A stretch of 50,017 nt of DNA, from the NCBI GenBank assembly GCA_022508265.1, contig JAFLVP010000009.1, forward strand, positions 1 through 50,017. Direction: 5' to 3'. Position numbers and translations under genes: made by a program. The DNA is from Clostridiales bacterium (GTDB lineage Bacteria > Bacillota > Clostridia > Christensenellales > Borkfalkiaceae). This document shows positions 36,301 through 48,085 of this stretch, in pieces; the first letter of the stretch is position 1, and the number at the start of each line of letters is the position of its first letter. The notes under the pieces are model-generated. The model was not told the origin of the DNA and searched no databases. It saw only the letters and a program-made list of their open reading frames with translations.

Positions 36301-37656
36301 CAGCAGCCAAGCTATCTCGCCCGAGTTAAATGCCGCTTCCGTTTTCACTTTTGCGCCGTCGGTATCCGCGTTGTTGATGCCGCCCGCCGCAGTACCCGTC
36401 AGGTAAAAGCAGTTTGAGACCGTGCCTGCGCTGGTGTTCATTATGTTTAGTCCGACCACACCGCCGACATTGCCGCTGCCTGTAACGGCGCCACGGTTAT
36501 AGCCGTTTTTGACCGTGCCGAGCGTGGGTCTTTTGTTTGTGCCGCCGCAGTTTTGGCCCACTAAGCCGCCGACGTTGCTGCTGCCTGTAACGGTAGCCGT
36601 ATTGTAGCAACTCATGATCGAGGCGCCGTCGTCATTTTGTCCCGCAACGCCGCCGATATACTGGCTACCGCTTACAGCGCCTGTATTATAGCACTCAGTG
36701 ATTTTAGCTTGGGCTACGCTCTGTCCCGCAACGCCACCGATATACTGGCTACCGATTACAGCACCTGTATTATAGCACTGCGTGACCGAGCCACCGTTGT
36801 TTTTCCCGACAATACCGCCGACGATAAGATTATTCCCTTCGCCTATTGTGCCTGTATTTCTGCAGTTTGTAATTTTGCTACCGCTGACATTGATGCCAAC
36901 AATGCCACCGACAGTACTGCCCTTGCCCGTACTATCAATCAGTGCAATAGTTCCGGTGTTTTCGCAGTCGATTACTTTAGCATTTGTTCCATAGTTTTGC
37001 CCGACAATGCCACCGGCATACTCGTTCCAACAGCTTACCTCGCCTCTATTGCTGCACTTTGTTATCGTACCGCTGCGATTATATCCCGCGATTCCGCCGA
37101 TAGGTTGACTCGAACTGCCTCCCTTGACGGCTCCTTCAAAAGAGCACATTTCTATGGTGCCTACGTCAAAATAACCGACGATACCGCCCACGTATCCTTT
37201 GCCGCTTACGGTACCCTTAACTGTAAGATTTTTGATAGTGCCATTTTCAACATATCCAAATAAACCTTGCCAGCCCTCAGTACTGTCGATATACAGACCT
37301 GAAATCGTATGATCGGCGCCGTCAAAGGTGCCGGTGAAGTGCTTATCATTATTGGCTCCGATCGGCGACCACGAAACACTTCCCCCGTTCAGATTGGCGC
37401 CGCATACGGTAGAAAGGTCGATGTCCTGTGTCAGTTTGAAATTCTTGCCCCAATCCGAGTTGGTTTGGGAAAGTGCGTATAACTCATCCGCCGACGAAAT
37501 CAGATAGGTATCGCCCTCGGCGTCGCTTCCGTACTCCACCTCTACCGCATATACCGACATCGGTGCAGACATAAGCATTATGCCCGCAACAAAGCACACA
37601 AGTAAACTTAACACAAACACAAGTCCCACATAAAGCTTGCTTTTGATGATTTTCAT
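30394..37656 (-). CDS. Giant surface protein with GLUG and tandem Ig-like repeats, 2420 residues
   Basis: A signal peptide (MKIIKSKLYV plus hydrophobic core, likely cut after VYA) is followed by about 400 residues of GLUG-type repeats (VGGIVGY, IGGVAGQ, VGGLVGQ). An InlB-like module comes next, then 17 tandem repeats of about 80-85 residues. Each repeat starts near NKANQxxFxITGLPxSVTYxD and contains GGSGTGAVTWEVT and VTIKGxGxVEITATK. Three repeats of another Ig-like type (LTAxYGDTLxDVxLPAGW) lead to a membrane segment with four tryptophans (SSFWWWWILLLIVMLI) and a cytoplasmic tail of about 55 residues. There is no LPXTG motif. GLUG and Ig-like repeats are stalk and adhesive modules of surface proteins. 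I start at 37656, where AAGGAAG lies 9 bases upstream, rather than 33 codons earlier. Confidence 0.87.
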   Translation of the reverse strand: MKIIKSKLYVGLVFVLSLLVCFVAGIMLMSAPMSVYAVEVEYGSDAEGDTYLISSADELYALSQTNSDWGKNFKLTQDIDLSTVCGANLNGGSVSWSPIGANNDKHFTGTFDGADHTISGLYIDSTEGWQGLFGYVENGTIKNLTVKGTVSGKGYVGGIVGYFDVGTIEMCSFEGAVKGGSSSQPIGGIAGYNRSGTITKCSNRGEVSCWNEYAGGIVGQNYGTNAKVIDCENTGTIALIDSTGKGSTVGGIVGINVSGSKITNCRNTGTIGEGNNLIVGGIVGKNNGGSVTQCYNTGAVIGSQYIGGVAGQSVAQAKITECYNTGAVSGSQYIGGVAGQNDDGASIMSCYNTATVTGSSNVGGLVGQNCGGTNKRPTLGTVKNGYNRGAVTGSGNVGGVVGLNIMNTSAGTVSNCFYLTGTAAGGINNADTDGAKVKTEAAFNSGEIAWLLQNGQATQAWGQLLKGSEIEKYPVLTDQLPKRVWKASFIKNGETIYVTYVNNGGTIAPPTDDEWYESNGTRFNSTVQITEDTILGLSVRFGAVTNNLITLDYGQSAEQNLDEWLEYEDGSSTEDKFTYTITDYDGLTGAYIEGNLLKIPSGANVKNGGYNLTVKAQEKKPLVDTTVRFTTRAVTDFGNGDVDFAVQVVINKIDQAPLKINDVPTSVTYLDSFVLTTQGGSGTGAVSWKVTAGTDYATINANGEVAINGVGLVEITATKAGGINYNDVSDTISLTVNKANQSAFTIKDIPASVTYKDGSFTLQTDGGSGTGAVSWEVTAGNDYAAISANGTVTIKGAGTVEITATKAGGDNYYDISDKISITINKVNQDDFKITGLPLSVTYGDKDFTLATEGGTGTGAVSWEVTAGKDYAAIDVNGKVSIKGAGTVEITATKSGGNNYNDIIDVISFTVYKANQEAFQITGLPGNVTYGDNDFALSFEGGSGTGAVTWEVTAGNDYATISANGTVTIKGAGTVEITATKAEDANFNAISDKISITINKANQPDFKITGLPQSVTFGDKDIELSTAGGIDGGSVAWEVTQGTLYAEIDSDGNVTIKGVGYVEITATKAGGDNYNDILDVIHFTVNKANQAPFTIKELPDRVTYGDRDFELATEGGTGSGAVTWEVTVGKEYAEINEQSGVVTVKGAGYVEITATKSGGDNYFDIFDTIDFTINKANQTEFKITGLPGYIEYEDSFTLQTDGGSGTGAIAWEVTVGREYAEIDSDGNVTIKGVGYVEITATKSSDLNYNAAIAMISFTANKENQQAFAITGLPVSVTYPDCFTLATKGGTGNGAVAWEVTLGKGFADIDANGKVTINGVGYVEITATKSGGDNYYDISDKVSFTINKANQPDFRIIMLPSYIEYEDVFTLQTDGVKSTGALTWNVSVGREHAEINSDGEVTITGVGYVEITATIAGDDNYNAAIAMVSFTVNKENQAAFAITGLPASVTYLDSFTLATSGGTGAGAVTWKVTVGNEFAEIEETTGKVTIKGVGYVEITVTKSGGNNYNDISDRISFTVNKANQPDFRIIELPSYIKYEDVFTLKTDGSKGKGTITWAVTEGRAYADVAPNGEVTILGVGYVEITATIASDDNYNAAIAMVSFTVNKENQAAFTITKLPASIAYEDVFTLQTNGGTGGGAVTWEVTLGKEFADIDANGKVTISGVGYVEITATKSGGDNYNDISDKVSFTVNKANQAALTISGLLNSVTYGDKDFLLTVSGGSGKGAISWDYTGKVTISATENVATITVNGAGEVTITATKAEDEHYKAISTVISFTVNKANQADFNIIKLPAGVTYTDAPFTIEADGGSGEGAITWKATGNVTISADGKFATITVNGAGEVTITATKAEDENYNAITTIVSFTVNRAHQDAFTIADVPNSVTYGDKDFTLKTQGGSGNGAVTWSVTDGNAFAEIDASGKVTIIGAGEVTITAIKAEDENFNSTLATISFTVNKANQTDFNIIGLPASITFNDGTFTLTADGGSGNGAVTWDFTGKVSLDTVGKTATVTTGGAGEVTITATKAGDDNYNAISTVISFTVNRANQSALIISGLPLGVNYKSKSFTLTADGGSVAGAAIWQVSEGSDFVTIDSNGEVTIKGAGRVEITAVKYGGNDYYDISSVISFTVEKATPEYTIPEGLTAAYGDTLADVVLPAGWAWDDALTTKVGAPGVHSFSATFTHSEAANYNTVTVILTITVVKATPYYTLPANLTATYGDTLGDVALPAGWTWNDALTTNVGKAGQRTFAATFTPNDTENYETVTVALTITVQKAIPQFTVPYGLKAMVGDTLGDVALPAGWTWNDALTTKVGKAGQRTFTATFTPSDTENFETVTIALTITVEAKGASSFWWWWILLLIVMLILFLFVVLLILRNRKKESSEVVVTENTNSQPQAVLQTAGKQQATTQTPAENAPPTIEETTKHR

Positions 37657-37806
37657 TGCCTGTTTCTTCCTTATCTTATACGAATCAAAATGCCGTAATC
37701 GGGTATTGTTTCTTAATATCAAATACCTTATTAAGAACTTTATTGATTTTATCACAATATATCTTTATTCGCAAGTTTATGAAGATTAATTTAGACAAAA
37801 ATTTGT

Positions 37807-37844
37807 AAAAAAATCAGAGCTTATTCCGTCATGGAATAAGCTCT
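37807..37844 (-). terminator. Intrinsic terminator downstream of the RiPP operon
   Basis: AGAGCTTATTCC at 37816-37827 pairs perfectly with GGAATAAGCTCT at 37833-37844. On the minus strand it is followed by GAT and seven T. It lies 220 bases after the UvrA-like gene and just after relic B. The stem shares GCTTATTCC with the terminator at 1989-2019. Confidence 0.85.
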
Positions 37845-37896
37845 AAACTACTAAATATTGTAATAATTTTTCAGTAACCCACTAAATAATCGTAAC

Positions 37897-37964
37897 GATT
37901 ACTTTCTCGGATTTTTAATGTTCGCCTGTACCGATGTACTACTTCAAAGTGCGATCTTTGTTAT
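37897..37964 (-). pseudogene. Relic B: decayed gene 3' end resembling the ppdK tail
   Basis: On the minus strand the last codons read TSVQANIKNPRK and stop at 37899-37901. Seven codons further upstream an in-frame TGA interrupts it, preceded by ITKIAL. It aligns with relic A over about 65 bases, with only synonymous changes in the last nine codons. Relics A and B are direct repeats that flank the second giant surface gene and nothing else. Confidence 0.5.
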
Positions 37965-38063
37965 CTAAGTTAATGTCTTTTTTCGATAATAAAACCTTCC
38001 TCTGCACTTAAGCTTATAATATATGCCACTATAATACAATTCCATAAATATTATATCCGTGAA

Positions 38064-40499
38064 TTAAACAAATTGCCTCAGTGATTTACCGGTGACAGTA
38101 TTTGTTGCCGCCACTTCCTTTGCCGTACCGGTCGCAACGACCGCTCCACCGTCCTTACCCGCACCAGGTCCCATATCGATAATGTAATCTGAACATGCTA
38201 TCAGTTCCATATTATGTTCAACTATGATTATCGAATTGCCTTCAGCAATGAGCTTTTCAAACATAAATACTAAATTTTGTATATCGACAGAATGCAGCCC
38301 GGCCGAAGGCTCATCGAAAATGTATAACACATTTTTAAATTTACTGTTCATTAAATTACCGGCTAATTTTAATCGTTGCGATTCGCCGCCTGACAATTCA
38401 ACAATATTTTGCCCAAGCCGTAAGTAGCCTAAGCTGACATCCTTCAATAATTCAAGCTTTTTTTGAATCTTTTTTTCTTCGTCGAAAAAGTCGCAAGCCG
38501 TATCAACATCAAGGTCGAGTATTTCCGAGATATTCTTACCATGATATTTCACGCCTAAGATTTTGCTATTAAATCTGCGTCCTTCGCAGCAGGGGCATTT
38601 AATTTCCGAATTGCTTACAAAATAATTCGAAAGCTTTATTTTCCCAAACCCGCCACATTGAGGGCAAGCGCCTACTGCAGTATTAAAACTGAATGCCGTT
38701 TCGTCAAGAGCCTGTTTCTCAGCATCTTCCGTATCGGCAAACAGCTTCCTGATATCAGGCATGATTTCACTGTAGGTCGCTACAACAGAACGGGAATTAT
38801 TTCCGATAGGTGACTGGGAACAAAGTATAATTTGCGCCACCTTTTCGCTGTTTACTATCTCAGCTTGCACTGTCGTTCTCGTCTTGGAAACCTGTTTGTT
38901 AATTTTACCGTATTCAACGAGCGAATCGAAAACCAATGAGCTTTTACCTGATCCGCTGATGCCCGTAATTGCCACGACACAATGAAGCGGTATGTCCACG
39001 CTTACATTTTTCAAATTGTTGGAATTTGCGTTGCGAATGCCGATAAAATCGCTCAGATCATACCCACACGGTCTGCTACGCTCAATTTTTAATTGCTTTG
39101 ACAATAATTTTTCTGTTAAACAGGCTGTGTCCTTCAGCCCCTCTTTCGCACCGTTGTAAACGATTTCACCGCCATGATAGGAAGCGCCCGGGCCGAATTC
39201 TATGATGTTGTCCGCAATATCTATAAGTTGCGGATTGTGTTCCACTAACAGTACAGTATTCCCGTTCCCCGCTTGCTGCAGGGCTTTTATTTCGCGAATC
39301 AAATTAGGAATCTCACAATAGTGCAAACCGGTGGATGGTTCATCAAGAATATACAGCACACCCGACATCTTGTTGGATATCAATGTAGAGAGAAATAGCC
39401 GATGCATTTCACCGCCAGATAGCGACGCCGTTTTTCTCGATAAACTTAAGTATGAAATTCCGAGATTGATGATAACCTCGCATTGATCTAAAATTTTACC
39501 AAGCGGAATGCTAATGATATCGTCGCGAAGGTCGCCGAAGTGAATGTTCTTGAGGAAACGATATAGATCGAAAATGGTCATATTCTGCACATCGCAGATA
39601 TTTTTGCCTTCGATTAAAATATTTTGCGCCAAACGGGAGATGCCTGCGCCGTTACAGTCCTCACATACCGAGTATGTGAAAAATTGGGACAACTGCTGTC
39701 TCAGCTTACTGCTGGTAGTCGTTTTGTAGGTTTTAAAAATTTCGTTGACGATTCCATCAAACGCAATTTTATTCTTTTTACTTTTTTGCACACCATATAA
39801 AAGTGCAACTTTAAGCTCGTTGCTGAAGTATTTAATAGGCGTATCCATTGTTGCACCGTATTGCATGACAAAGGATTTGAAGAAATTATACTTGGTAGTG
39901 CCCTTTGTGGGGATCCCATAAAGAAACCCGCCTTCATTGAGCGATAATTCCTGATCGGGATAAATTTTCGTTTCATCGACATCTACGACAACACCTTCTC
40001 CTCCGCACGTTTGGCACATGCCATTAGGCGACATATTGGAAAAAAACGAGGGCGGCAAAACCGCAGGCTTTACGCCGCAGCTGGGACAAGGCATATATGC
40101 CGAAGTGTAAAATTTCAACCCCGCCTTTTGACAATGCGTACAGGATTGTTGACCGACAGACGAAAAGATCGCAAACAAAAAGGAGTTGATATGAGATACG
40201 CTACCTACGGTGCTTAGCGGATTGGATACGTTCCTGATTTGACGAACTGCTACGGTGGGAGGCAACCCGATTGCCATGTCAAAATCGGACGAGCAGGACT
40301 TCGATAAATAAAACGCCTCGCTCGGGTCTAAAATTTCTAAGAATTGGCGACGCCCCTCGCTGTAGACCGTATTAAAGGCAAAGGAAGATTTGCCGGAACC
40401 AGAAACACCGGTTACTGCCGTAATCTTGCCGTAAGGGAAGGAGACATCTATATTTTTGAGGTTGCCCTCTCTGCAACCTATAAACTTGATTTCATTCAC
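38064..40499 (-). CDS. UvrA-like ABC ATPase, short resistance-type form, last gene of the RiPP operon
   Basis: The 811-residue protein has two ABC ATPase halves of UvrA type. Walker A motifs are GVSGSGKSS (31-39) and GISGSGKSS (513-521), and signature motifs are LSGGE (360-364) and LSGGESQR near the end. Zinc-type cysteine pairs lie at 120/123, 138/141, 162/165 and 279/282, with CPQC and CPCC pairs in the second half. True UvrA is about 940 residues; this is shorter, with little room for the UvrB-binding insertion. The short UvrA2/DrrC group includes self-resistance proteins in DNA-targeting antibiotic clusters. It has no membrane segments, so it is not a transporter. It starts with GTG, 14 bases after the B12-type radical SAM gene. 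A role protecting the producer is inferred from location and family. Confidence 0.85.
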   Translation of the reverse strand: MNEIKFIGCREGNLKNIDVSFPYGKITAVTGVSGSGKSSFAFNTVYSEGRRQFLEILDPSEAFYLSKSCSSDFDMAIGLPPTVAVRQIRNVSNPLSTVGSVSHINSFLFAIFSSVGQQSCTHCQKAGLKFYTSAYMPCPSCGVKPAVLPPSFFSNMSPNGMCQTCGGEGVVVDVDETKIYPDQELSLNEGGFLYGIPTKGTTKYNFFKSFVMQYGATMDTPIKYFSNELKVALLYGVQKSKKNKIAFDGIVNEIFKTYKTTTSSKLRQQLSQFFTYSVCEDCNGAGISRLAQNILIEGKNICDVQNMTIFDLYRFLKNIHFGDLRDDIISIPLGKILDQCEVIINLGISYLSLSRKTASLSGGEMHRLFLSTLISNKMSGVLYILDEPSTGLHYCEIPNLIREIKALQQAGNGNTVLLVEHNPQLIDIADNIIEFGPGASYHGGEIVYNGAKEGLKDTACLTEKLLSKQLKIERSRPCGYDLSDFIGIRNANSNNLKNVSVDIPLHCVVAITGISGSGKSSLVFDSLVEYGKINKQVSKTRTTVQAEIVNSEKVAQIILCSQSPIGNNSRSVVATYSEIMPDIRKLFADTEDAEKQALDETAFSFNTAVGACPQCGGFGKIKLSNYFVSNSEIKCPCCEGRRFNSKILGVKYHGKNISEILDLDVDTACDFFDEEKKIQKKLELLKDVSLGYLRLGQNIVELSGGESQRLKLAGNLMNSKFKNVLYIFDEPSAGLHSVDIQNLVFMFEKLIAEGNSIIIVEHNMELIACSDYIIDMGPGAGKDGGAVVATGTAKEVAATNTVTGKSLRQFV

Positions 40500-40513
40500 A
40501 GCGCACCACTTTT

Positions 40514-42091
40514 CTAATAATTTTGAATGATTGACAGGATATTTTTATCAAATCTGCTCGGCTCAATGCCGGGGTCGTCCATAAATACTCTGCCGCCGTA
40601 ACAATACTTATTGTTCTGCGCTCCTGCCATAAATGTATCTACAAGCGCAACATATTTCAGTACGTTGCTATAGCTATGCTCATCATAATACAGCATATTG
40701 ATATCTATATCTTTATTCCACCCTTTCACATACTGTTTCATGAGCTGATCGTATATGGGAGTGCCGGAATATGCGGTAAAGACGGACAGGCTGTAGGAGT
40801 AAATTTTATCCTTATTATTGACCATGAACCTTAGCGTTGCGTCCCTGTCCTCGTCTGTTTCTCCAGGGAACCCGAACATGATATACGCATGAATCCTTAT
40901 GCCGGTTTGTTTTGCCACCGAAAGAAACGTATTGTATTCGTCAACATTCGTGCCCTTTAACATGGCATTTAACACTTTTTGGGAACCGCTTTCAAAACCG
41001 ATCCTCAGCATGCAGCATCCGTTACTTGCTAATTGCGGCAATATTGACGTAAGCGACTTATCCGCTCTTGCGTTTATTCCCCATTTGAATTCGCCGTGAA
41101 TCAGATCTGCTATCTTCAACAAGTCACGCGGGATGATTGCCGCATCGGTAAAGTAGACGTGCGTTATGCCGCATTGGGCAACGAGGGCCCTCAACGAGCG
41201 TACAGTGTCTCCAATTAACTTATTGTCAAGCTTATGCACTTCAACGCTTCTGTCGCCATTGCAAAAACGGCATTTCCCGTAATAGCAACTTGTTCGAAAG
41301 GAAAACGGAATACAACGGGTACGGTTGTCCGTATAATATCGTTCCCACTTTACGTTGGAAAAATCAGGAATCCGCTCTAAATCTACCCTGTATTCTTCGT
41401 TTGCATTGCCACGAGACAGACAGAGGGAGAGTAGCGCGCTTTCACCCGGACCACATATTACGCTATCCGCCAACGCGCCAAACCGACTCATATATTGGTA
41501 TTCACTATTATTCTGCTCGAACAAACTGCCGCCGAAGACGATTCGTATTTGAGAATTGTGCTCTTTTATGCGTTTTGCAATCAATAATGCGAATGGTAGC
41601 TGTGAGAGGAAGGATACGGATAATCCGACAATTGAGTAGCCCAAGCGACAAACATCTGTTATTTCTTCTTCTAAAAGCGGTCCAAATACGGACAGATTTT
41701 CCATACCAATAACAATATCTTCATAGGTTTTCAAACCCGACTGAAAGGTCACTGCACCTGCAGAGAATACAACATTGTTTTGAAGCCTGTTCAATAATTC
41801 TTCTGCCAAAATCAGCTTACTGATTCTATCCTCGCTATCACTTTTATAATTTAACAGCAAGTCTTGATTGGGTATTTCAGTCTTCTTGCACAACGCCAAA
41901 CATTTGTTGAGTTTATCCTGCTTTAGTACATTATGGTAAAACACAACCGAAAGGTCGACCGCATAGGATACTACGCCGTGCTCTTTTAGATAACGGTTTA
42001 ATATGTATGCCCCCAACATCGGCATTGTGACGTCGCCTGGTGGCGGAATTATGAGCGCGATTTCGTGCTTAGGAATCTCATCGTTACTCAT
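40514..42091 (-). CDS. B12-binding-type radical SAM protein of the RiPP operon
   Basis: The 525-residue protein has the plan of B12-dependent radical SAM enzymes. Residues 8-225 resemble a cobalamin-binding Rossmann domain (ALIIPPPGD at the start, IVGLSVSF, RIVFGGS, VICGPGESALL). The radical SAM core follows. Its cluster motif is SCYYGKCRFC with Cys269, Cys274 and Cys277, spaced CX4CX2C instead of the usual CX3CX2C. Later core elements include RIGFESGSQKVLNAMLKG and YIMFGFPGETDED. B12-type enzymes in RiPP pathways often methylate carbon centres, but other reactions are known, so the product is unclear. Its ATG follows directly on the stop codon of the PqqD-like gene (TAAATG). Confidence 0.85.
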   Translation of the reverse strand: MSNDEIPKHEIALIIPPPGDVTMPMLGAYILNRYLKEHGVVSYAVDLSVVFYHNVLKQDKLNKCLALCKKTEIPNQDLLLNYKSDSEDRISKLILAEELLNRLQNNVVFSAGAVTFQSGLKTYEDIVIGMENLSVFGPLLEEEITDVCRLGYSIVGLSVSFLSQLPFALLIAKRIKEHNSQIRIVFGGSLFEQNNSEYQYMSRFGALADSVICGPGESALLSLCLSRGNANEEYRVDLERIPDFSNVKWERYYTDNRTRCIPFSFRTSCYYGKCRFCNGDRSVEVHKLDNKLIGDTVRSLRALVAQCGITHVYFTDAAIIPRDLLKIADLIHGEFKWGINARADKSLTSILPQLASNGCCMLRIGFESGSQKVLNAMLKGTNVDEYNTFLSVAKQTGIRIHAYIMFGFPGETDEDRDATLRFMVNNKDKIYSYSLSVFTAYSGTPIYDQLMKQYVKGWNKDIDINMLYYDEHSYSNVLKYVALVDTFMAGAQNNKYCYGGRVFMDDPGIEPSRFDKNILSIIQNY

Positions 42092-42361
42092 TTATATGAT
42101 CTCGATTAAATCAAGCTTAATACAAGTTTTGATAAAATCCGTTACGACTTTTTCAGTCTCTATGTAGCCAATCCCGCTAAGCTGTTTTGCAATGTCGCCT
42201 ATGGATGATTGCCCGTCGACGAGATGTAAAATTTTCGTTGCGTCCTTATCAAATGAAAAGATTGGCGTCCTGTTCGTAAATACGAGACAACCAAACTCCT
42301 CATCCCGAAACCGAACGCCTGCCTGAATTTGCGGAATCATATTCAGTGAAGTCATATTCAT
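42092..42361 (-). CDS. PqqD-like peptide chaperone (RiPP recognition element)
   Basis: The 89-residue protein has the PqqD-like winged-helix pattern: an N-terminal beta segment (GVRFRDEEFGCLVFTNRTPIFSF), then DKDATKILHLVDGQSSIGDIAKQL and a last helix VVTDFIKTCIKLDLIEII. PqqD-family proteins bind the leader of a precursor peptide and present it to the radical SAM maturase. Its presence among radical SAM genes is one of the best signs that this operon makes a modified peptide. AAGGAG lies 4 bases before the first ATG, or 10 bases before an ATG two codons later. It sits between the second SPASM enzyme and the B12-type enzyme with gaps of 14 and 0 bases. Confidence 0.85.
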   Translation of the reverse strand: MNMTSLNMIPQIQAGVRFRDEEFGCLVFTNRTPIFSFDKDATKILHLVDGQSSIGDIAKQLSGIGYIETEKVVTDFIKTCIKLDLIEII

Positions 42362-42375
42362 ATTTCTCCTTGTGA

Positions 42376-43374
42376 TTATTTAGAACAGAACGAATCGGGC
42401 GTCTCGCGCCAATTACCGTCTTTCATTGCCGAGGCACGGCATCCGCCATGGCAGGCAGCCAATGTGCTGCACTTAAGACATTTCCGAGGCAACTGCTCTT
42501 GTCTAACGAAACAATTAAATACATCCGAATTTCTTTTGATCTCTGAAAGCGGCGTTTCCAAAATATTGCCGCCGAGCGGAATTCGCGTCAACCCGCAGAC
42601 CATAAGATTCCCTTCTACATCGGCATAAAATCTGTCATACCCGTAAGAGCATGTGTTGCACAAATGCTTTAAGTCGGGCGGCACAATGCAAAAAGGCATT
42701 GCTTCTGCGAATTCGATATGCATTTCATTGTGTTGCATAAAGTGCTCTGCAAACCTCATTATGTCAATCATATCATTTTTTTCTATTTCTAAATCATGTG
42801 CCGATTGCCCGATTCCGACAGGTACAAACCGCGTGACAGTCATGAATTTTAACCCTATCGACTGCAGATATTCGACCGTCTTCGGCATAACCTTTTTATT
42901 AAACGCGTTAAGCACAAAATTGCTTGCAACAGGTACCCTTTTATCGCGCAAGTATGCCTTGATTGCATTCGTAGAAGCGTCAAAGCTCCCCTTAATGCCC
43001 GTTAAACTATCATGCGTCTCCGCATCTCCGTGAATGGAAATACTAACGCTCATCGGCCCTATGTCACAAATCCGTTTCACGTTTTCGTCCGTCATCAAAG
43101 CACCGTTTGACAGTATCATGACATTAGGGAAAAGCTCGACGGCCCTGTTTAAGATTTCAAAAAAATCGGGATGCATTAAGGGCTCGCCTCCGGTGAGGGT
43201 AAGCTGCATAATACCCTGCTGCGCAAGCACATCCATCATTTCGAAAACCTTGTGATTGAATCTCGGCTTTTGCGAATTGTAGCAAAAGCGGCATTTGAGA
43301 TTACACGCCTCCGTTAACTCAATTTGAACCAGCAGCGGCTGTATCTCATATAAATGGTCGTATTTTTCCGCCAT
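42376..43374 (-). CDS. Radical SAM/SPASM peptide maturase 2
   Basis: The 332-residue protein has a radical SAM cluster motif CNLKCRFC (Cys24, Cys28, Cys31) and the LTLTGGEPLMHPDF motif, followed by SISIHGDAETHDSLTG. The C-terminal SPASM domain carries CNTCSYG, VCGLTR, and CLKCSTLAACHGGC for auxiliary iron-sulfur clusters. SPASM enzymes typically modify ribosomal peptides, for instance by linking a cysteine sulfur to another residue's carbon. A strong AAGGAGG lies 10 bases before the ATG. It shares the same plan as maturase 1 but is clearly divergent, so the two probably act at different positions or in different reactions on the peptide. Confidence 0.9.
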   Translation of the reverse strand: MAEKYDHLYEIQPLLVQIELTEACNLKCRFCYNSQKPRFNHKVFEMMDVLAQQGIMQLTLTGGEPLMHPDFFEILNRAVELFPNVMILSNGALMTDENVKRICDIGPMSVSISIHGDAETHDSLTGIKGSFDASTNAIKAYLRDKRVPVASNFVLNAFNKKVMPKTVEYLQSIGLKFMTVTRFVPVGIGQSAHDLEIEKNDMIDIMRFAEHFMQHNEMHIEFAEAMPFCIVPPDLKHLCNTCSYGYDRFYADVEGNLMVCGLTRIPLGGNILETPLSEIKRNSDVFNCFVRQEQLPRKCLKCSTLAACHGGCRASAMKDGNWRETPDSFCSK

Positions 43375-43392
43375 ATAACAAAATCCTCCTTT

Positions 43393-44379
43393 TTAATTGT
43401 TTAGCAGACACCCCGACTGATCGCACGGCAGGCATCCGCCGCCGCACACCTTCAAAAACGAACACTCGTTACAATTTTGATGTCTCGCGCCCGTCTTAGT
43501 CCATTTGTCTTCAAGAAATCCATCCCACGCTTTTGAAAATAATTCCGTTTTTATATTCCCGATGATCGGTGCATCCAAAACGGGGCAAGGCGTGATATCG
43601 CCCTCAGGCGTTATTCGCGCTGTAGCAAGCCCCGCAGAACATGGAACATTGCTCTCGCAAATAAAATTCAGTAATTTTGAATGAGAGCCTATGCGGCAGG
43701 GAGGGAACGGTTGGGGTAATCCGATCCGTGCAAACTGGTTTCTGCTCTCGGTTTGAAATTTAAAAACGGTTTCTACCGCGGTTAAGAATTCTGCATCCGA
43801 AACAGCTATTGCACTGTCATTTGTTAAAACACGGGACAATAACAGTGTTCCCACCCCCAGCGAGGATAGCAACTGTAATATCGCCCCGATGTCGTCCTGA
43901 TTTTGTTTAGTGACAGTTACGTTAACTGCAACATAGACATTATTTGCAACAAGATGCTTGATACCGGCTACCGCCTGTGCAAATGCACCCGTTCTGCCCA
44001 CTACAAGATCGTGTTTTTCGGGAGTTGCGCCATGCAGAGAAGAGCACACGGCAGGAAACAGTTGGGCAATGCGTACCGCAGTTTTTTCGTCAATCAACGT
44101 AGCATTCGTATTAAAGTGAATGTCAAAGCCGAGCTCTGAGCACAATTGGGCTAAGTCAAAAAATTTTGTGTACAACAAAGGTTCCCCACCGTTAAAATTG
44201 ATGGAGAAAACCCCGTACTCGCGCATGTCTGCCAATATAATCTTCAGTCTATCGTACGGAACCGTCTTTTGATTGCCTGTTCCGTCTAAATTATTGTAGC
44301 AGAATCCACATGCGTTGTTGCATGCGTAAGTAAGCTCAAGCTGTATTGATATGGGTCTCGTTTTGTAGATTAGCGGCAT
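43393..44379 (-). CDS. Radical SAM/SPASM peptide maturase 1
   Basis: The 328-residue protein has the radical SAM motif CNNACGFC (Cys20, Cys24, Cys27), SINFNGGEPLLYTKF and CSSLHGATPEKHD. The C-terminal SPASM domain has CPVLDAPIIGNIKTE and CNECSFLKVCGGGC. ATG codons at 44403, 44388 and 44379 are all possible. I chose 44379 because the protein then begins MPLIYKTRPISIQLELTYAC, a normal distance from the cluster. It overlaps the end of the precursor-peptide gene by 10 bases, so translation is probably coupled, and none of the starts has its own ribosome site. Being directly after the peptide gene, it is the likely first modifying enzyme. Confidence 0.88.
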   Translation of the reverse strand: MPLIYKTRPISIQLELTYACNNACGFCYNNLDGTGNQKTVPYDRLKIILADMREYGVFSINFNGGEPLLYTKFFDLAQLCSELGFDIHFNTNATLIDEKTAVRIAQLFPAVCSSLHGATPEKHDLVVGRTGAFAQAVAGIKHLVANNVYVAVNVTVTKQNQDDIGAILQLLSSLGVGTLLLSRVLTNDSAIAVSDAEFLTAVETVFKFQTESRNQFARIGLPQPFPPCRIGSHSKLLNFICESNVPCSAGLATARITPEGDITPCPVLDAPIIGNIKTELFSKAWDGFLEDKWTKTGARHQNCNECSFLKVCGGGCLPCDQSGCLLNN

Positions 44380-44573
44380 GCACAGCATTGGCACGGCGTG
44401 CATTTACATACGATTTTATCGCCAGCGTTGTCTGTCCCGCGCTTAATGAATTCCGAAACGCGAAAATCCAGCTGCGTCAATTGCGAAACACCACCGACAT
44501 GCTCATGCGATTTCGCAAAAGGTCTTTCATAGGGGTTAAAGATTTCTATTTTCGGCTGCAATGCTTGATTCAT
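44370..44573 (-). CDS. Candidate RiPP precursor peptide with C-terminal cysteine cluster
   Basis: The 67-residue peptide has a leader-like part (MNQALQPKIEIFNPYERPFA to about residue 54) and a tail VCKCTPCQCCACR with cysteines at 56, 58, 61, 63, 64 and 66. AAGGAG lies 8 bases before the ATG, a strong ribosome site for such a short gene. It starts 4 bases after the FRG gene stop and overlaps the first SPASM gene. There are no cysteines in the first 55 residues, so the six are confined to the tail, as expected for a leader-core precursor. The final product could carry thioether links or bind metal. No known precursor family is recognised; calling it a precursor rests on size, composition and context. 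Confidence 0.72.
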   Translation of the reverse strand: MNQALQPKIEIFNPYERPFAKSHEHVGGVSQLTQLDFRVSEFIKRGTDNAGDKIVCKCTPCQCCACR

Positions 44574-44576
44574 AAT

Positions 44577-45824
44577 TTATTCTCCTTCTATTTCTATTAC
44601 AAATTTTGCTTTTTGATAAAATTTCAACCGATAAATATCATTTACCAGCTCGTTTCTGGCCTTAGATTCTTCCGGCGCACTCAACAACGTTGAAATTTTA
44701 TCGTTTTCCGTTTGACTTTCGAAATCTAAAATGATTTTGGCATATTCTTTTCGCTTGAGCAAAAACTCATCTCTGTGATCGCCCTTTTTTAATTTTTCTG
44801 CCACTTCAATGATATCTATACAACGTCCAAAATTATCTGCACTTGGAATAATTCGGGACTTATCATTCATTTCGATGGATAATTCATAACTATCGATTGC
44901 TTTCTCAAATTCTCCTTTTTCGACGGCAAGATCGCCTTTCAATCGATAAAGCCATCTCACTACAACTTGATGATCTCTTTTGATCAACGGCACCAACCTT
45001 TCGGCTTGTTCTATCTCATATTCAGCCTTCTCCAATTTATCTATAAAAATATATGTCGTTGCTGCTTGTAAGCGCATGACGACATCGTTGATATAAAAAG
45101 ATTCAACGATCAGGCTTGCCCCCCAACCGCAAAACCCATAGAAATCCTTAAAAAGCTCTTTCTTCGAAATGCCAAGATTCGCCAAAGTTTTTAAAATTCT
45201 CGCCTTGCAACGGTTAGGTACGATATATTTATCCACCAGCATTTCGTCAATCCGACCGATGTTTGGAATAATAAAACAACCCTGCTGTGATAAAATTCTG
45301 GTGTTGAATGCCACGGGATCCAATATGTAATTATACCACGCGTCATTATGTGCGAAAATATTCTCAATGGTACAATCATTATTGATGATTGCAAATTTCG
45401 ATTTTTTTACATAATATACAACGCCGTCATCGTTTTCGTTTTTTTCATCAGTCAGGCATGCAAAGAACAATGCAACCAACGGATTGTAGGAAAAATCAAT
45501 CAACCCTGTCTTTGCCCCACCGTGTTGCAAAACCGCCAACAATTCAAATGGGGAAGCAGAAAGCTGCCTTTCCTCATCGCTGTTGATTTTATGCGCCTGC
45601 TCCAAGAGCAATTGATGATATCGTTTAATATCTTCGGCGTTTACCTTCCTATCTTTTTTTGTTTCACTTATTACTCTATATGCCCCACTGCTGACATCGT
45701 ATCTCGTTGAAGGCTGTCCTCTAAAAATAAATTTTTGTTTCTCATCATTCGTCAAAGTGATAATAGCGTCAATGTAATCAACGACGCCGTTTATTTCAAT
45801 TTCGTTCGTCTTTTGGTCGTTCAT
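44577..45824 (-). CDS. FRG-domain protein with TPR-like C-terminal half, first gene of the RiPP operon
   Basis: The 415-residue protein has the FRG motif FIFRGQPS (residues 32-39) and the second conserved block LQHGGAKTGLIDFSYNPLVALFFAC (split here around 99-123, with the key LQHxGxxTxLIDxxxNPLVALFFA pattern). The C-terminal part from about 255 is helical and TPR-like (AEYEIEQAERLVPLIKR, GDLAVEKGEFEKAIDSYEL). The FRG domain has no established activity, though it occurs in genomic islands and near defence genes. AAGGA lies 8 bases before the ATG and a good promoter lies upstream. It leads the operon, with 3 bases between its stop and the peptide gene. A role in sensing or regulating peptide production is possible but unproven. 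Confidence 0.83.
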   Translation of the reverse strand: MNDQKTNEIEINGVVDYIDAIITLTNDEKQKFIFRGQPSTRYDVSSGAYRVISETKKDRKVNAEDIKRYHQLLLEQAHKINSDEERQLSASPFELLAVLQHGGAKTGLIDFSYNPLVALFFACLTDEKNENDDGVVYYVKKSKFAIINNDCTIENIFAHNDAWYNYILDPVAFNTRILSQQGCFIIPNIGRIDEMLVDKYIVPNRCKARILKTLANLGISKKELFKDFYGFCGWGASLIVESFYINDVVMRLQAATTYIFIDKLEKAEYEIEQAERLVPLIKRDHQVVVRWLYRLKGDLAVEKGEFEKAIDSYELSIEMNDKSRIIPSADNFGRCIDIIEVAEKLKKGDHRDEFLLKRKEYAKIILDFESQTENDKISTLLSAPEESKARNELVNDIYRLKFYQKAKFVIEIEGE

Positions 45825-46076
45825 ATTTAGTTTCCTTATTTCCTTATCAATAAAGAACTACCAGTAGAAAGAATAGCACAATTCAACAATTTCTGCAAGC
45901 AATTTTTTAACGGAAGTCAGTATGAACGTATTCTTTCAAAAATATTGATAATTCGTTTTATTTATAGACGACAGAAATCGATAAATTGTTACAGGAATTT
46001 TAAATTGATAATAATAGTTTATATAATAGATTTTACTCATTGTAGCAATTACTCAAATTTACAATTAGAAAGTATG
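45825..46076. other. A/T-rich gap between the RiPP operon and the broken recombinase
   Basis: No gene is visible in these 252 bases apart from the promoter at 45870-45898. The base composition is visibly more A/T-rich than the hut or ppdK genes, as is the recombinase beyond it. Confidence 0.45.
45870..45898 (-). promoter_or_regulatory. Promoter of the FRG/RiPP operon
   Basis: On the minus strand TTGCAG (45893-45898) and TATTCT (45870-45875) are exactly 17 bases apart, about 45 bases before the FRG gene. No obvious operator dyad was seen at this site. Confidence 0.6.
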
Positions 46077-47800
46077 TTAAATGTAGACTTGTATCACTAT
46101 GTCTTGGTACTGCTTTTGCCTTAATAGTTGTTTTCTTTTATTTCTGTATTTCAACGCTTCTTTGAAGGGAATACAAAAACTACAAAAAAATTTCTTATCC
46201 GTACTTAGATTCGCTTCTGTTTCAAACCGTAAATACCAAGAAAATTCTGTTTCGCTTTCTGCTTTTATTTGAGTTACAAATTTATCAATAATATTTTCAT
46301 CAAAGTCAGTGTTGTTATGAGAAATAAAATCAAGTAAATGCTTTTTGATTTCTTCCTTTGTATACGGATGTGTTTAGGCAACTCTTGGCAAGTTCTCATA
46401 GTCGAGCAACTGTTGTTCGGCTTGCTTTTTATCGGCATCAACAGATGCTTTTAATCTTAAATATGTATTTCTATCAATTTCGCCGTTAATACGCATTTCA
46501 ATAAGGCGCTCTGCTTTTTCGGCGAACTTTTTAATCTCCAACATATAACTATTCCTAATTCTTTCAATATCTTGCTGTTCCATTACAGTTTCATTCATAA
46601 AAATTTTAATTGATTTTTCTAATAGGTCGCTATCTTCCCAAACCTTTTTGAAAACGGCTTTTGCCATCATTTCAAGTTTCCAGCCACAGATAGCACGCAT
46701 ATCGCAAAACCCTTCACTTTCTCTGTTCGTAATTTTATTAGCTCCCTTATTTAACTGGTTATAGCACTTATAGCCCACAGGTCTTTCACCATTCAATTTC
46801 GGTCTCCACTTATCCATACGCATAGACGAACCGCAACGGCATCTCAACTTTTTAGTCCAAACATTGCCGCCTTTATTTATTCCTGAATATTGCATCTTTG
46901 CTTTGCCGTTTATATTTACTAATCGCAAATTTCTTTTACTCTCTCTGATAAGTTTACAGTGTTCCCACTGTTCTTCGGATATAATCGGCTCAAAGTTAGC
47001 TGTAACATACTCAAACGTATCTTCATTGTGATTGGCAATAACTTTCTGTTCAAGATAGCTATTCCTATAAGATTTATTATAGGCAACAACTCCCTTGTAA
47101 GCAGAGTTGTGTAGGCAGCGCATTATTCTTGTATTGTCCCATTTCACAAGCCCGCTTGAATTCTTTCTCTCACGTTTAATAAGTTCATCACGTATTGACT
47201 GAATTCCAAAACCTGACTCATACATATTAAAAATCATGCGCACTGTTTCAGCTTGCTCTTCATTGATTACATAGGTATCTCCAACTCTATCATAGCCGAG
47301 TAAATTTCCGTTTCCGTAAATAACACCGTTTTTTCTGCTTATAGCTTGTCCTGCTTTGATTCTTTCAGACATCTTGCGACTTTCTTCCTGCGCTACCATT
47401 GCCCTGATCTCAAATTCATCTCGCTTTCGTTTTCCATTGTCCATATTCCTTCCTGTACGAAAAATACTTCTACTCCCCAATTTTTCAATTGTCGAGTGAT
47501 TTCGAGACAATCGATCGTATTTCTTGCAAATCTAGATACTTCACGAGTGACAATCAAATCAAATTTACCCAACCTTGCATCTTCTATCATTCTCATAAAT
47601 TCGGGGCGTTTCTTTGTTTGCGTACCTGTAATCCTGTCGTCAATATAACGATCTACAACAGTCCAATTTCTGTAACTTTTTCTGAGTTCTTCATACCATT
47701 GCATCTGATTGCTCAAAGCATACGTCTGCGCCTCGTGTTCCGTTGATACCCTGCCGTAAAATACGACTTTTCTGTTCATTGACATTTGATAACTTTTCAT
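46077..47800 (-). pseudogene. Large serine recombinase, broken by a frameshift and an in-frame stop
   Basis: The start has AAAGGAG 7 bases before the ATG at 47800. The N-terminal resolvase domain is clear (VVFYGRVSTEHEAQTYALSN with the catalytic Ser, DDRITGTQTKKRPEFMRMI, VTREVSRFARNTIDCLE). Near 47421-47423 one base seems to be missing. Adding one would join ENES to DEFEIRAMVAQEESRKMSER in a single frame. The recombinase domain and a zinc-ribbon (CRCGSSM and YKCYNQL) continue to PRVA, where an in-frame TAA lies at 46374-46376. Beyond it the same frame runs on for about 98 codons (THPYTKEEIKKHLLDFISHN to DIVIQVYI), ending at 46077. Both lesions argue for a dead integrase. The family catalyses integration and excision of mobile elements. 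Confidence 0.85.
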
Positions 47801-47850
47801 ATTCGTTCTCCTTTGGTTTTTATTGATTATAAACTTTAGTTCAGGAGAAC

Positions 47851-47883
47851 AAAAAATCTCTGCAATCACATGATTGCAGAGAT
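47851..47883 (-). terminator. Hairpin with T run upstream of the recombinase
   Basis: ATCTCTGCAATC at 47856-47867 pairs with GATTGCAGAGAT at 47872-47883 around ACAT. On the minus strand it is followed by six T. It sits about 50 bases before the recombinase start and could be an attenuator or the terminator of a lost upstream gene. Confidence 0.7.
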
Positions 47884-47944
47884 CCTTCATTTTAAGTCGT
47901 TCAATTGCTTCTTACTAGTCTCGCACCTGTATTCGAAAATATCA

Positions 47945-47981
47945 GTGTAATAGAGTTAAAAAACGCATTTTTCTATTACAC
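47945..47981. repeat. Inverted repeat beside the recombinase, candidate attachment-site element
   Basis: GTGTAATAG at 47945-47953 is mirrored by CTATTACAC at 47973-47981, with an A-rich then T-rich centre. It lies between the recombinase and the ppdK terminator, where an att site of a serine integrase would be expected. No second copy was found in the window. Confidence 0.35.
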
Positions 47982-48044
47982 GATTTTCTCTTCATTGCTA
48001 TATATACGGTTGCAAGACTTGCAATAAAATTATTAAAAAATAGC

Positions 48045-48076
48045 AAAAAAAGACCGTTTTCTTGCGAAAACGGTCT
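48045..48076 (-). terminator. ppdK terminator, duplicate of the 24.06 kb hairpin
   Basis: AGACCGTTTTC and GAAAACGGTCT form a stem around TTGC, followed on the minus strand by a run of T. It ends ppdK, whose stop is at 48086. The 30 bases 48047-48076 are identical to 24063-24092. Confidence 0.88.
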
Positions 48077-48085
48077 AAATTTGTC

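Follow-up and report, generated by a model that had tools for sequence, protein, structure and literature searches.

We consider it probable, as regards its RiPP core, that seven adjoining genes in the stretch of DNA analysed here (the window, 50,017 nucleotides) form a horizontally moving RiPP cassette of an undescribed class. The locus has the parts by which RiPP pathways are generally recognised, a precursor with a conserved leader and a separate variable core next to modifying enzymes, and the RiPP reading of an initial annotation is supported by the finding that the conserved peptide and the enzyme set lie beside one another in all the cassette loci found. That annotation knew of no described pathway with this set of parts, and none was found in the literature searched, which excluded most subscription papers. 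The best reading is a novel RiPP class, with a chemistry and a product that we infer; DNA is a possible target of that product.

Four other loci bear on this reading. The same seven genes occur in the same order in two other genomes (loci L005 and L007; L005 and L006 are one contig and were counted once), and two distant members of the phylum (L014 and L015) carry a core of six genes.

Table 1. Features of the cassette and its surroundings (positions in the window).
Feature	Position	Strand	Basis
First gene: FRG-domain protein of 415 aa, TPR-like repeats at its C-terminus	44577..45824	-	
Ribosome-binding-site-like AAGGAG ahead of the peptide gene	44582..44587	-	sequence
Precursor peptide gene, 67 aa; leader motif PKIEIFNPYERPF, C-terminal tail KIVCKCTPCQCCACR	44370..44573	-	selection, relatives' alignment, profile match
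SPASM radical SAM enzyme 1 (SP1), 336 aa	43393..44403 (homologue-supported start 44379)	-	domain models
SPASM radical SAM enzyme 2 (SP2), 332 aa	42376..43374	-	domain models
PqqD-like RiPP recognition element (predicted), 89 aa	42092..42361	-	NCBIfam, model, Foldseek
B12-binding radical SAM enzyme of 525 aa, with cluster motif CX4CX2C at residues 269-277	40514..42091	-	
UvrA-like ATPase of 811 aa with two P-loops and two LSGGE signatures	38064..40499	-	
Terminator-like hairpin, 14 pairs, with T run; downstream of operon	37814..37846	-	
Weak promoter-like site TTGCAG-N17-TATTCT, TGC before second hexamer	45870..45898	-	read by eye, below scan threshold
Extent of the nucleotide match to L007 (83.5% across 7818 columns)	38060..45857	.	

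Operon layout and the precursor gene

The ORF listing of the window confirms the compact arrangement first described, with seven minus-strand genes between 38064 and 45824 and gaps of at most 18 bases; from the FRG gene to the UvrA-like gene the intergenic distances are 3, -34, 18, 14, 0 and 14 bases. The one overlap reported is present, but its size is 34 bases only as annotated: since homologues of SP1 have their first codon where SP1 has that for residue 9, the true start is probably at 44379 and the overlap 10 bases. The terminator proposed 3' of the operon was seen as a strong hairpin. The single promoter proposed ahead of it was not recovered, the minus-strand scan from the FRG gene to 45950 giving no site at threshold; a site similar to the weak extended -10-like site of Table 1 was seen by eye in L007, where it lies outside the aligned block. 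Scans of the window with Rfam (at gathering scores) and for tRNAs returned no matches. Pieces of recombinase genes lie upstream of the cassette in the window and in L005.

The peptide is 67 residues long, as the initial annotation stated, but it ends in Arg (...CCACR) and not in Cys; six Cys fall within its last 12 residues. The window and L007 peptides are 87% identical, with a dN/dS of 0.065 (23 synonymous and 10 nonsynonymous changes; synonymous divergence about 1.0), and their last 19 residues are the same, with different codons at 6 of the 19. Because of this identity, the low dN/dS and a tail that is identical despite synonymous codon changes, we take the ORF to be a real gene and not a chance reading frame. 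The leader motif PKIE[VI]F[DN]x[FY]xxPF is common to both clades and conserved in the four aligned peptides, and the tails end in AC[RK]; the core has diverged between the clades and in L014 and L015 is made of A-C-X repeats with the spacing CxxCxxCxxC. According to the initial annotation, homologous loci with the radical SAM genes but no peptide gene at this position would speak against its reading; the peptide gene adjoins SP1 directly upstream in four of four other loci, and hence in all five with the window included.

When a profile was given no peptides but those of the window and L007, it placed the L014 and L015 peptides as the top two among 2069 ORFs of five loci (E 3.3e-4 and 1.1e-3; 17.7 and 16.0 bits), although each match is weak when taken singly and the best of 20 shuffles, at 14.6 bits, came close to these scores. 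Over 23 genomes a further profile of the peptides matched in five, exactly the cassette carriers, and in none of the 18 without a cassette; only the latter count is informative, because four of the five positives supplied profile rows and the peptide of the fifth is identical to that of the window. When the four peptides were compared with NCBIfam and hits were allowed up to E 1, there were only two, both at chance level (E 0.018 and 0.19) and far below cut-off.

Enzymes, FRG protein and UvrA-like ATPase

The assignment of two SPASM enzymes and a third radical SAM protein was borne out by domain models, with Radical_SAM in three proteins and SPASM in two, the SP2 match (19.6 bits) lying slightly below the Pfam cut-off of 21.5. 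SPASM radical SAM enzymes carry CX3CX2C together with CX9-15GX4C and CX2CX5CX3C, and this cysteine pattern is present in both proteins. The CX3CX2C motif lies at residues 28-35 of SP1, which has seven conserved cysteines in the SPASM region, and at residues 24-31 of SP2; invariant positions are C28/C32/C35, C255-G268-C273 and C311/C314/C320/C324 in four SP1 sequences, and C24/C28/C31, C242-G255-C260 and C299/C302/C308/C312 in five SP2 sequences. For both enzymes the best solved-structure match is SkfB. Both also match PADLOC viperin models (E 1e-21 to 5e-23), and SP1 reaches 65 of 180 bits against the NCBIfam viperin model, far below cut-off.

The PqqD-like protein was found again by weak matches to Pfam PqqD (E 0.095) and NCBIfam PqqD (E 7.8e-6, below cut-off); the L015 copy scores above the Pfam PqqD cut-off, whereas the window copy stays below those of the sequence models. 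When its structure model (pLDDT 89.0) was compared with the PDB by Foldseek, RiPP leader-binding proteins or domains, among them leader-bound recognition elements (RREs), TruD and PqqD, took ranks 2-6, 8 and 9 with E values between about 2e-3 and 7e-3. Their TM scores by query were 0.73-0.76, except for 0.60 at rank 9; no match fell below E 0.001, and a methyltransferase stood at rank 1. The protein is predicted from this model to have the fold of a RiPP recognition element. In the B12-type enzyme the B12-binding domain scores 31.0 bits, just under the Pfam cut-off of 32.1, which the homologues in L007 (35.8) and L014 (46.1) exceed; Pfam did not detect the domain in the L015 enzyme at this position. 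Among the named groups nearest to it are C- and P-methyltransferases. The known B12 RiPP C-methyltransferase (TIGR03975) was rejected at 70.8 bits against a cut-off of 281.85, the motif here being CX4CX2C.

The first gene of the operon encodes an FRG/TPR-like protein, as had been proposed, with an FRG domain at 61.9 bits (Pfam E 1.1e-16; cut-off 25), a weak TPR match and a match to PDC-S15 (E 8.3e-34), which PADLOC lists as a candidate for a defence family. FRG has been assigned to the ART superfamily (PMC9503650). It is possible that the protein is an NADase or immune effector, or an accessory; its AlphaFold model, from three close sequences, was unusable (pLDDT 41.5). The gene is conserved in L005 and L007, and it ends 3, 3 and 13 bases ahead of the peptide gene in the window, L005 and L007, respectively. 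No FRG match was found in the 14-kb stretches of L014 and L015, and the unity of all seven genes that the initial annotation implied is not supported; FRG appears to be an add-on specific to the clade of the window.

The UvrA-like ATPase passes the TIGR00630 cut-off (731.1 bits against 729.8), as expected from its first description. Within what we take to be the limits of the UvrB-binding domain, 7 of 115 positions align in the window, 7 in L007, 6 in L014 and none in L015, as against all 115 in canonical UvrA: the UvrB-binding region has been lost. The insertion domain, on which DNA binding by the self-resistance proteins depends, appears to be kept in the window protein (Pfam 6e-14), with 94 of 112 positions aligned in the window, 94 in L007, 88 in L014 (Pfam E only 0.029) and 19 in L015, which has a shorter form without most of this domain. 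The window protein aligns with Ecm16 (7SH1) across residues 4-527. Ecm16, DrrC and their relatives are self-resistance proteins for DNA-targeting products (PMC10192343, PMC10413001); the second paper divides 642 actinobacterial clusters near uvrA or uvrA-like genes among eight classes that include RiPPs. Like Ecm16, DrrC and MtrX, the protein studied here is UvrA-like, lacks the UvrB-binding region and is encoded in a biosynthetic operon, and the insertion domain that its window copy appears to keep would be a further likeness; the products named in those cases are polyketide-type, enediyne or depsipeptide and actinobacterial (PMC10192343, PMC10413001), whereas here the operon is a radical SAM peptide operon of a Clostridia-type bacterium.

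In a UvrA tree of 10 sequences, which included six plasmid records as yardsticks, the window groups with L007 and L014 with L015; with long branches and uneven composition, the deeper forks are open and the tree does not show the window protein grouping with the L014 and L015 copies. The L015 protein matched 741 plasmid records, all at less than 60% identity. A PADLOC match to mads_3 (E 1.3e-51) may, like the viperin matches, reflect merely general UvrA or radical SAM kinship.

Distribution and mobility of the cassette

The cassettes of the window and L007 share 79-91% protein identity with gene order kept, and dN/dS values of 0.057-0.154 show each of the seven to be under purifying selection. 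In the comparison with L005, dN/dS is not low for SP1 (0.60) and the PqqD-like protein (0.84), each value resting on 2 synonymous changes. The flanks of L007 are unrelated to those of the window, and similarity ends at the cassette edges; because positions 36001-50017 of the window gave no other L007 match at E 1e-5 beyond 38060-45857, the cassette appears to be a discrete unit. L005 has the same flanks as the window and, since these are shared, is not an independent arrangement.

In L014 and L015 the core consists of the peptide, the two SPASM enzymes, the PqqD-like protein, the B12-type enzyme and the UvrA-like protein, joined by an M19 dipeptidase. Identities to the window in these two genomes are 34 and 34% for SP1, 38 and 40% for SP2, 27 and 28% for the B12-type enzyme and 29 and 32% for the UvrA-like protein. 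Co-occurrence had been suggested as a check, and the PqqD-like, two SPASM and B12-type genes are together in all four other loci. The initial annotation also noted that no peptidase or exporter is present; the operon of the window indeed has no exporter, but the lack of a peptidase is a trait of the clade of the window, because both distant cassettes contain the M19 peptidase. The L015 cassette has the same G+C content as its flanks (38.1% in both).

Occurrence was very patchy among the genomes searched, and two further class searches, small ones of 3 and 10 genomes, were each positive in a single genome that was already known. SP2 also matches G646 and G806 (E about 1e-44); the G646 match sits, by eye, in a haem-synthesis operon, and the ORFs of G806 reached only 5.4 bits against the peptide profile. 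Four scans of viral contigs, with the SP1 protein, a DNA pattern for the peptide tail and alignments of the B12 enzyme and of SP2, found no relative. Among plasmids, SP1 had no match, the B12 enzyme had two weak ones, of which that in Rhizobium is unrelated in context, and SP2 of L015 had one weak match. The cassette appears to be rare and movable, and present in a few uncultured Clostridia-type bacteria.

Related systems, competing readings and a proposed pathway

A small Cys-rich precursor beside SPASM enzymes is what sactipeptide and ranthipeptide pathways (AlbA-subtilosin, SkfB, PapB) also have; they differ from the present operon, in which the two SPASM enzymes are unlike each other and are joined by a stand-alone RRE, a B12-type enzyme and a UvrA-like protein but by no exporter. 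Among the matches listed, none of the named sacti- and ranthipeptide models reached cut-off in the window or its relatives. The PQQ and mycofactocin pathways likewise combine a PqqD-type chaperone with a SPASM enzyme that has a short precursor as its substrate, but the operon described here differs in its Cys-rich core, second SPASM enzyme and B12-type enzyme. Membership was rejected for PQQ (PqqE 78-90 of 381 bits and PqqD 25.7 of 46 in the window) and for mycofactocin (SPASM 94-112 of 265 bits, MftB 19.1 of 33), the relatives likewise scoring under the cut-offs. The SynChlorMet cassette resembles ours in its pair of SPASM enzymes (ScmE/ScmF), and both models match both enzymes, but at 66-80 bits against cut-offs of 400 it was rejected as well.

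The peptide could instead give rise to a small cofactor or metallophore, much as in PQQ or mycofactocin synthesis, its tail being oxidised and cut to an intracellular product of di- or tripeptide size that is no antibiotic. The PqqD-like and PqqE/MftC-like parts, the operon without an exporter, the fixed last 19 residues between the window and L007 (6 codons differing, at a synonymous divergence of about 1.0), the M19 dipeptidase of the distant cassettes and the A-C-X repeats of L014 and L015, which could yield several copies of one small unit, are consistent with such a product. We regard it as unlikely, considering that the cut-offs of the PQQ and mycofactocin models are not reached, the tail is unlike between clades, it is not obvious what a UvrA-like protein would do in making a cofactor and occurrence is so patchy. 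SkfB and PqqE act on a neighbouring peptide, and SPASM enzymes placed as these are act on the adjoining peptide, as AlbA does; with the conserved leader and the predicted leader-binding RRE, this points to the peptide as the substrate and makes it very improbable that the peptide only binds a metal or Fe-S cluster while the radical SAM enzymes act elsewhere, despite the six Cys of the window tail and a CxxCxxC-like spacing that extends to CxxCxxCxxC in L014 and L015.

The operon might also be mainly an anti-phage or conflict system with FRG as its effector, for which the peptide pathway makes a trigger, inhibitor or substrate. In favour of this are the place of FRG in the ART superfamily (a possible NADase immune effector; PMC9503650) and its match to PDC-S15, its position as first gene tight to the peptide gene, the mads_3 and viperin matches, which may be general kinship, and the mobile behaviour of the cassette. 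The window protein shares an FRG domain with an F-R-G motif with FRG/ART immune effectors (PADLOC PDC-S15; PMC9503650), but it differs in sharing an operon with a peptide pathway. Since FRG has no match in the L014 and L015 stretches, the peptide pathway appears to exist without it; PDC-S15 is moreover merely a candidate family, SP1 falls far short of the viperin cut-off and no copy was found in the four viral-contig scans, and we think a system of this kind improbable. Chance neighbourhood in a mobile region, to which the recombinase pieces and the flanks shared with L005 might be attributed, deserves practically no credence, being refuted by the gene order that L007 keeps between unrelated flanks and by the core retained in L014 and L015.

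In the RiPP pathway that we prefer, the 67-residue peptide would be the precursor, and its N-terminal leader would be bound by the stand-alone PqqD-like element, which would present the Cys-rich tail to SP1, SP2 and the B12-type enzyme. There is about an even chance that the SPASM enzymes make Cys-derived links, so that every A-C-X-like unit would have its Cys in a thioether or oxidised in another way, and the case for carbon methylation by the B12 enzyme is just as evenly balanced. The leader would be removed by peptidases outside the operon, and in the distant relatives the M19 dipeptidase of the cassette probably trims the product; this mode of release, and an accessory role for FRG, are what we infer. 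By analogy with Ecm16 and DrrC, the UvrA-like ATPase could protect the producer, in which case the product would bind DNA, a proposal that we make tentatively and with the balance slightly against it.

With low confidence, the same parts could be read as an intracellular defence. Because the operon has no exporter, a radical-modified DNA-binding peptide would stay inside the cell and block phage or plasmid DNA, the UvrA-like protein would clear the chromosome and, in the clade of the window, FRG/ART would add a suicide step. Anthracyclines have an anti-phage effect; if the defence proposal is true, the system would be a peptide counterpart of that effect and, as far as our searches show, the first RiPP with UvrA-type self-protection.

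In summary, the leader motif, the Cys-rich tail, the fixed enzyme set and the UvrA-like partner are four marks by which this RiPP class can be defined, and which therefore make it searchable and testable. The A-C-X repeat cores, combined with a pair of SPASM enzymes and one of the B12 type, suggest new cysteine chemistry. The UvrA-guarded products that we found named in PMC10192343 and PMC10413001 are polyketide-type, enediyne, aureolic acid and depsipeptide compounds. If the UvrA-like protein is a self-resistance factor, the cassette predicts a DNA-binding ribosomal peptide from Clostridia-type bacteria.

Composition of the cassette

In the ORF listing of the window, positions 38064-45824 are filled by seven minus-strand ORFs, separated in gene order, from the FRG protein to the UvrA-like protein, by 3, -34, 18, 14, 0 and 14 bases; neither an exporter nor a peptidase is found among these seven genes. 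A terminator-like hairpin was detected, and a promoter scan of the minus strand just upstream of the FRG gene returned no site at the scan's threshold. By eye, we noted a TTGCAG-N17-TATTCT site in the window and a similar counterpart, TTGAAA-N17-TATACT, in L007, a close cassette locus of another genome. Two giant ORFs also lie in the window. Judged by eye, the shorter one, with numerous similar repeat units and a hydrophobic segment at its C terminus, probably encodes a surface protein.

Both SPASM enzymes (SP1 and SP2) retain the CX3CX2C motif and auxiliary-cluster cysteines, and the best solved-structure relative of each is SkfB, the sporulation killing factor maturase. Three of the domain assignments, SPASM for SP2, B12-binding and PqqD, have Pfam matches that are weak or fall slightly below the cut-offs. 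The groups that the B12-type enzyme resembles, with scores far below cut-offs, include C- and P-methyltransferases, and AprD4 is its only solved relative at E 1e-5. Its residues 269-277 carry CX4CX2C (CYYGKCRFC) rather than the usual CX3CX2C, a spacing retained in the B12-position enzymes of two distant cassettes, L014 and L015 (genomes G542 and G563, from other families of the phylum).

Coordinates of the cassette genes and other features (window positions unless a locus is named)
Feature	Size	Location	Strand
Gene 1, FRG protein	415 aa		minus
Gene 2, peptide	67 aa		minus
Gene 3, SP1 (SPASM enzyme 1)	336 aa		minus
Gene 4, SP2 (SPASM enzyme 2)	332 aa		minus
Gene 5, PqqD-like	89 aa		minus
Gene 6, B12-type radical SAM	525 aa	40514-42091	minus
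Gene 7, UvrA-like	811 aa		minus
Terminator-like hairpin	14 pairs	37846-37814	
TTGCAG-N17-TATTCT		45898-45870	
Giant ORF	4450 aa	3556-16908	minus
Giant ORF	2453 aa	30394-37755	minus
Serine-recombinase-like gene		46374-47510 and 47393-47890	minus
Serine-recombinase-like gene		L005 9181-10781	
Pair resembling Phd/RelE type		L007 12244-12767	
Protein without clear family	451 aa	L014 7922-9277	
M19 dipeptidase relative		L014 1757-2686	
M19 dipeptidase relative		L015 1998-2885	
Reduced UvrA-like	570 aa	L015 3828-5540	

Distribution and movement

When one genome per species was scanned across 84,980 species, close relatives of the B12 enzyme came from two loci, L006 (isolate HAN107), on the same contig as L005, and L007 (isolate Lapin-020 bin46). 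The complete set of seven genes, in unchanged order, is present in L005 and L007, where protein identities to the window are 93-100% and 79-91%, respectively. Against L007, dN/dS is 0.150 for FRG, 0.065 for the peptide, 0.154 for SP1, 0.057 for SP2, 0.123 for PqqD-like, 0.133 for B12 and 0.073 for UvrA-like; against L005, where the peptide gene is identical, it is not low for SP1 (0.60) and PqqD-like (0.84), with two synonymous changes behind each, and is <=0.21 for the others.

The L005 flanks match those of the window at 93%, and because these flanks are shared the two cassettes represent a single site within one genus. Nucleotide similarity to L007 (83.5%) is bounded by the cassette, spanning window 38060-45857; at E 1e-5, window 36001-50017 contains no other match. 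The G+C content of the cassette is 42.6% in the window, against 51.0% and 45.5% in flanking genes, and 40.8% in L007, against 58.5% and 46.1%; in L015 no difference between cassette and flank was found. The confinement of similarity to the cassette, together with the contrast in G+C, indicates that it was transferred in one piece, at a minimum between the lineages of the window and L007. Upstream of the operon in the window and L005 lies a serine-recombinase-like gene, recognized by eye, which looks broken because it is in overlapping or separate frames; it may be linked to the arrival of the cassette. Just past the L007 cassette, a small gene pair resembles, by eye, a Phd/RelE-type toxin-antitoxin.

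Among 150 relatives, the B12 enzyme was found in two genomes, that of the window and a congeneric one; it occurred in the window's genome alone among 391 of the class, and in 3 of 398 of the phylum (the window's, G542 and G563). SP2 matched at 1e-42 in 4 of 398 genomes of the phylum sample around G542, strongly in G542 and G563 and at about 1e-44 in the remaining two; each of two relatives searches recovered it in 2 of 149 genomes, the same pair both times.

L014 and L015 encode SP1 (34 and 34% identity to the window), SP2 (38 and 40%), PqqD-like (25 and 33%), B12-position radical SAM (27 and 28%) and UvrA-like proteins (29 and 32%) in the same direction and order; a further radical SAM protein and an M19 dipeptidase close each of these cassettes. 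L014 has a second B12-type enzyme upstream, and a protein without clear family between its PqqD-like and B12 genes; in L015 a methyltransferase gene separates the B12-position gene from the UvrA-like gene, and Pfam detected no B12-binding domain in the B12-position enzyme. G542 and G563 each carry a stand-alone M19 gene besides the cassette copy, and the window's genome, G052 and G915 carry one stand-alone gene each. The cassette M19 relatives are 30% identical to each other, and their Pfam matches are much weaker than those of the stand-alone M19 proteins in their own genomes.

The putative precursor peptide and a predicted recognition element

The window peptide ends in ...CKCTPCQCCACR, and its last 19 residues are identical in L007 though 6 of the 19 codons differ. 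A 48-aa peptide gene lies directly upstream of SP1 in both L014 and L015, the latter being the internal-ATG form of a 70-aa ORF with its start picked by alignment. In the alignment, window, L014 and L015 peptides have PKIE[VI]F[DN]x[FY]xxPF in common, as well as AC[RK] at the end of the tail, and the L014 and L015 cores are A-C-X repeats, ACSACTACTACR and ACCACTACTACSACK. A profile built from the window and L007 peptides only ranked these two first and second of 2069 ORFs from five loci (E 3.3e-4 and 1.1e-3; 17.7 and 16.0 bits); the best of 20 shuffles reached 14.6 bits and the rest <=10.6. No NCBIfam model covers the four peptides.

The PqqD-like structure model (5 sequences, pLDDT 89.0) matched in the PDB leader-bound lasso-peptide B1 proteins, TruD, PqqD and a thiopeptide-pathway RiPP recognition element (RRE). 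These RRE-type matches held ranks 2-6, 8 and 9 (TM by query 0.60-0.76; E 2e-3 to 7e-3), rank 1 being a mycobacterial methyltransferase, with no PDB match below E 0.001. Given the predicted RRE-type fold and the leader motif common to the peptides, the simplest reading is that the two would form a leader-RRE pair.

Possible self-resistance and defence roles, and the nature of the cassette

The window UvrA-like protein scores 731.1 bits against the UvrA model (cut-off 729.8); it has P-loops and LSGGE signatures, two of each, and lacks the UvrB-binding region. Its best stretch against Ecm16 (7SH1), a UvrA-like antibiotic self-resistance protein, is residues 4-527; alignments to Ecm16 start at residue 130-136 for full-length canonical UvrAs and at 249 for Deinococcus UvrA2. 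According to PMC10413001, gene clusters whose products bind DNA are marked by UvrA-like genes. A self-resistance role would best fit the window's clade, since the insertion domain is kept in the window and L007, weak in L014 and mostly absent in L015, and may not be the role common to both clades. The L015 protein is unusually reduced, lacking most of this domain and having one signature motif only. A UvrA tree did not resolve common descent of the two clades' UvrA-like genes as cassette members.

The FRG protein is attached to the operon in 3 of 3 close loci, with no tblastn match in the L014 or L015 stretches, and is dispensable for the cassette class. It matches PADLOC candidate PDC-S15, a candidate defence family, and PMC9503650 places the FRG domain in the ART superfamily and suggests that it might be an immune NADase. 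The other PADLOC matches, mads_3 (UvrA-like) and viperin models (SP1 and SP2), probably reflect general kinship. A DNA-acting product and a defence role of the cassette are candidate readings.

Literature searches, which covered few subscription papers, found no work that combines radical SAM, RiPP, UvrA and PqqD, none linking a precursor peptide and radical SAM chemistry to a membrane dipeptidase, and none joining FRG, radical SAM, RiPP and defence. The cassette is real, mobile, rare and of RiPP type with a conserved putative precursor, and most likely represents an undescribed RiPP class.
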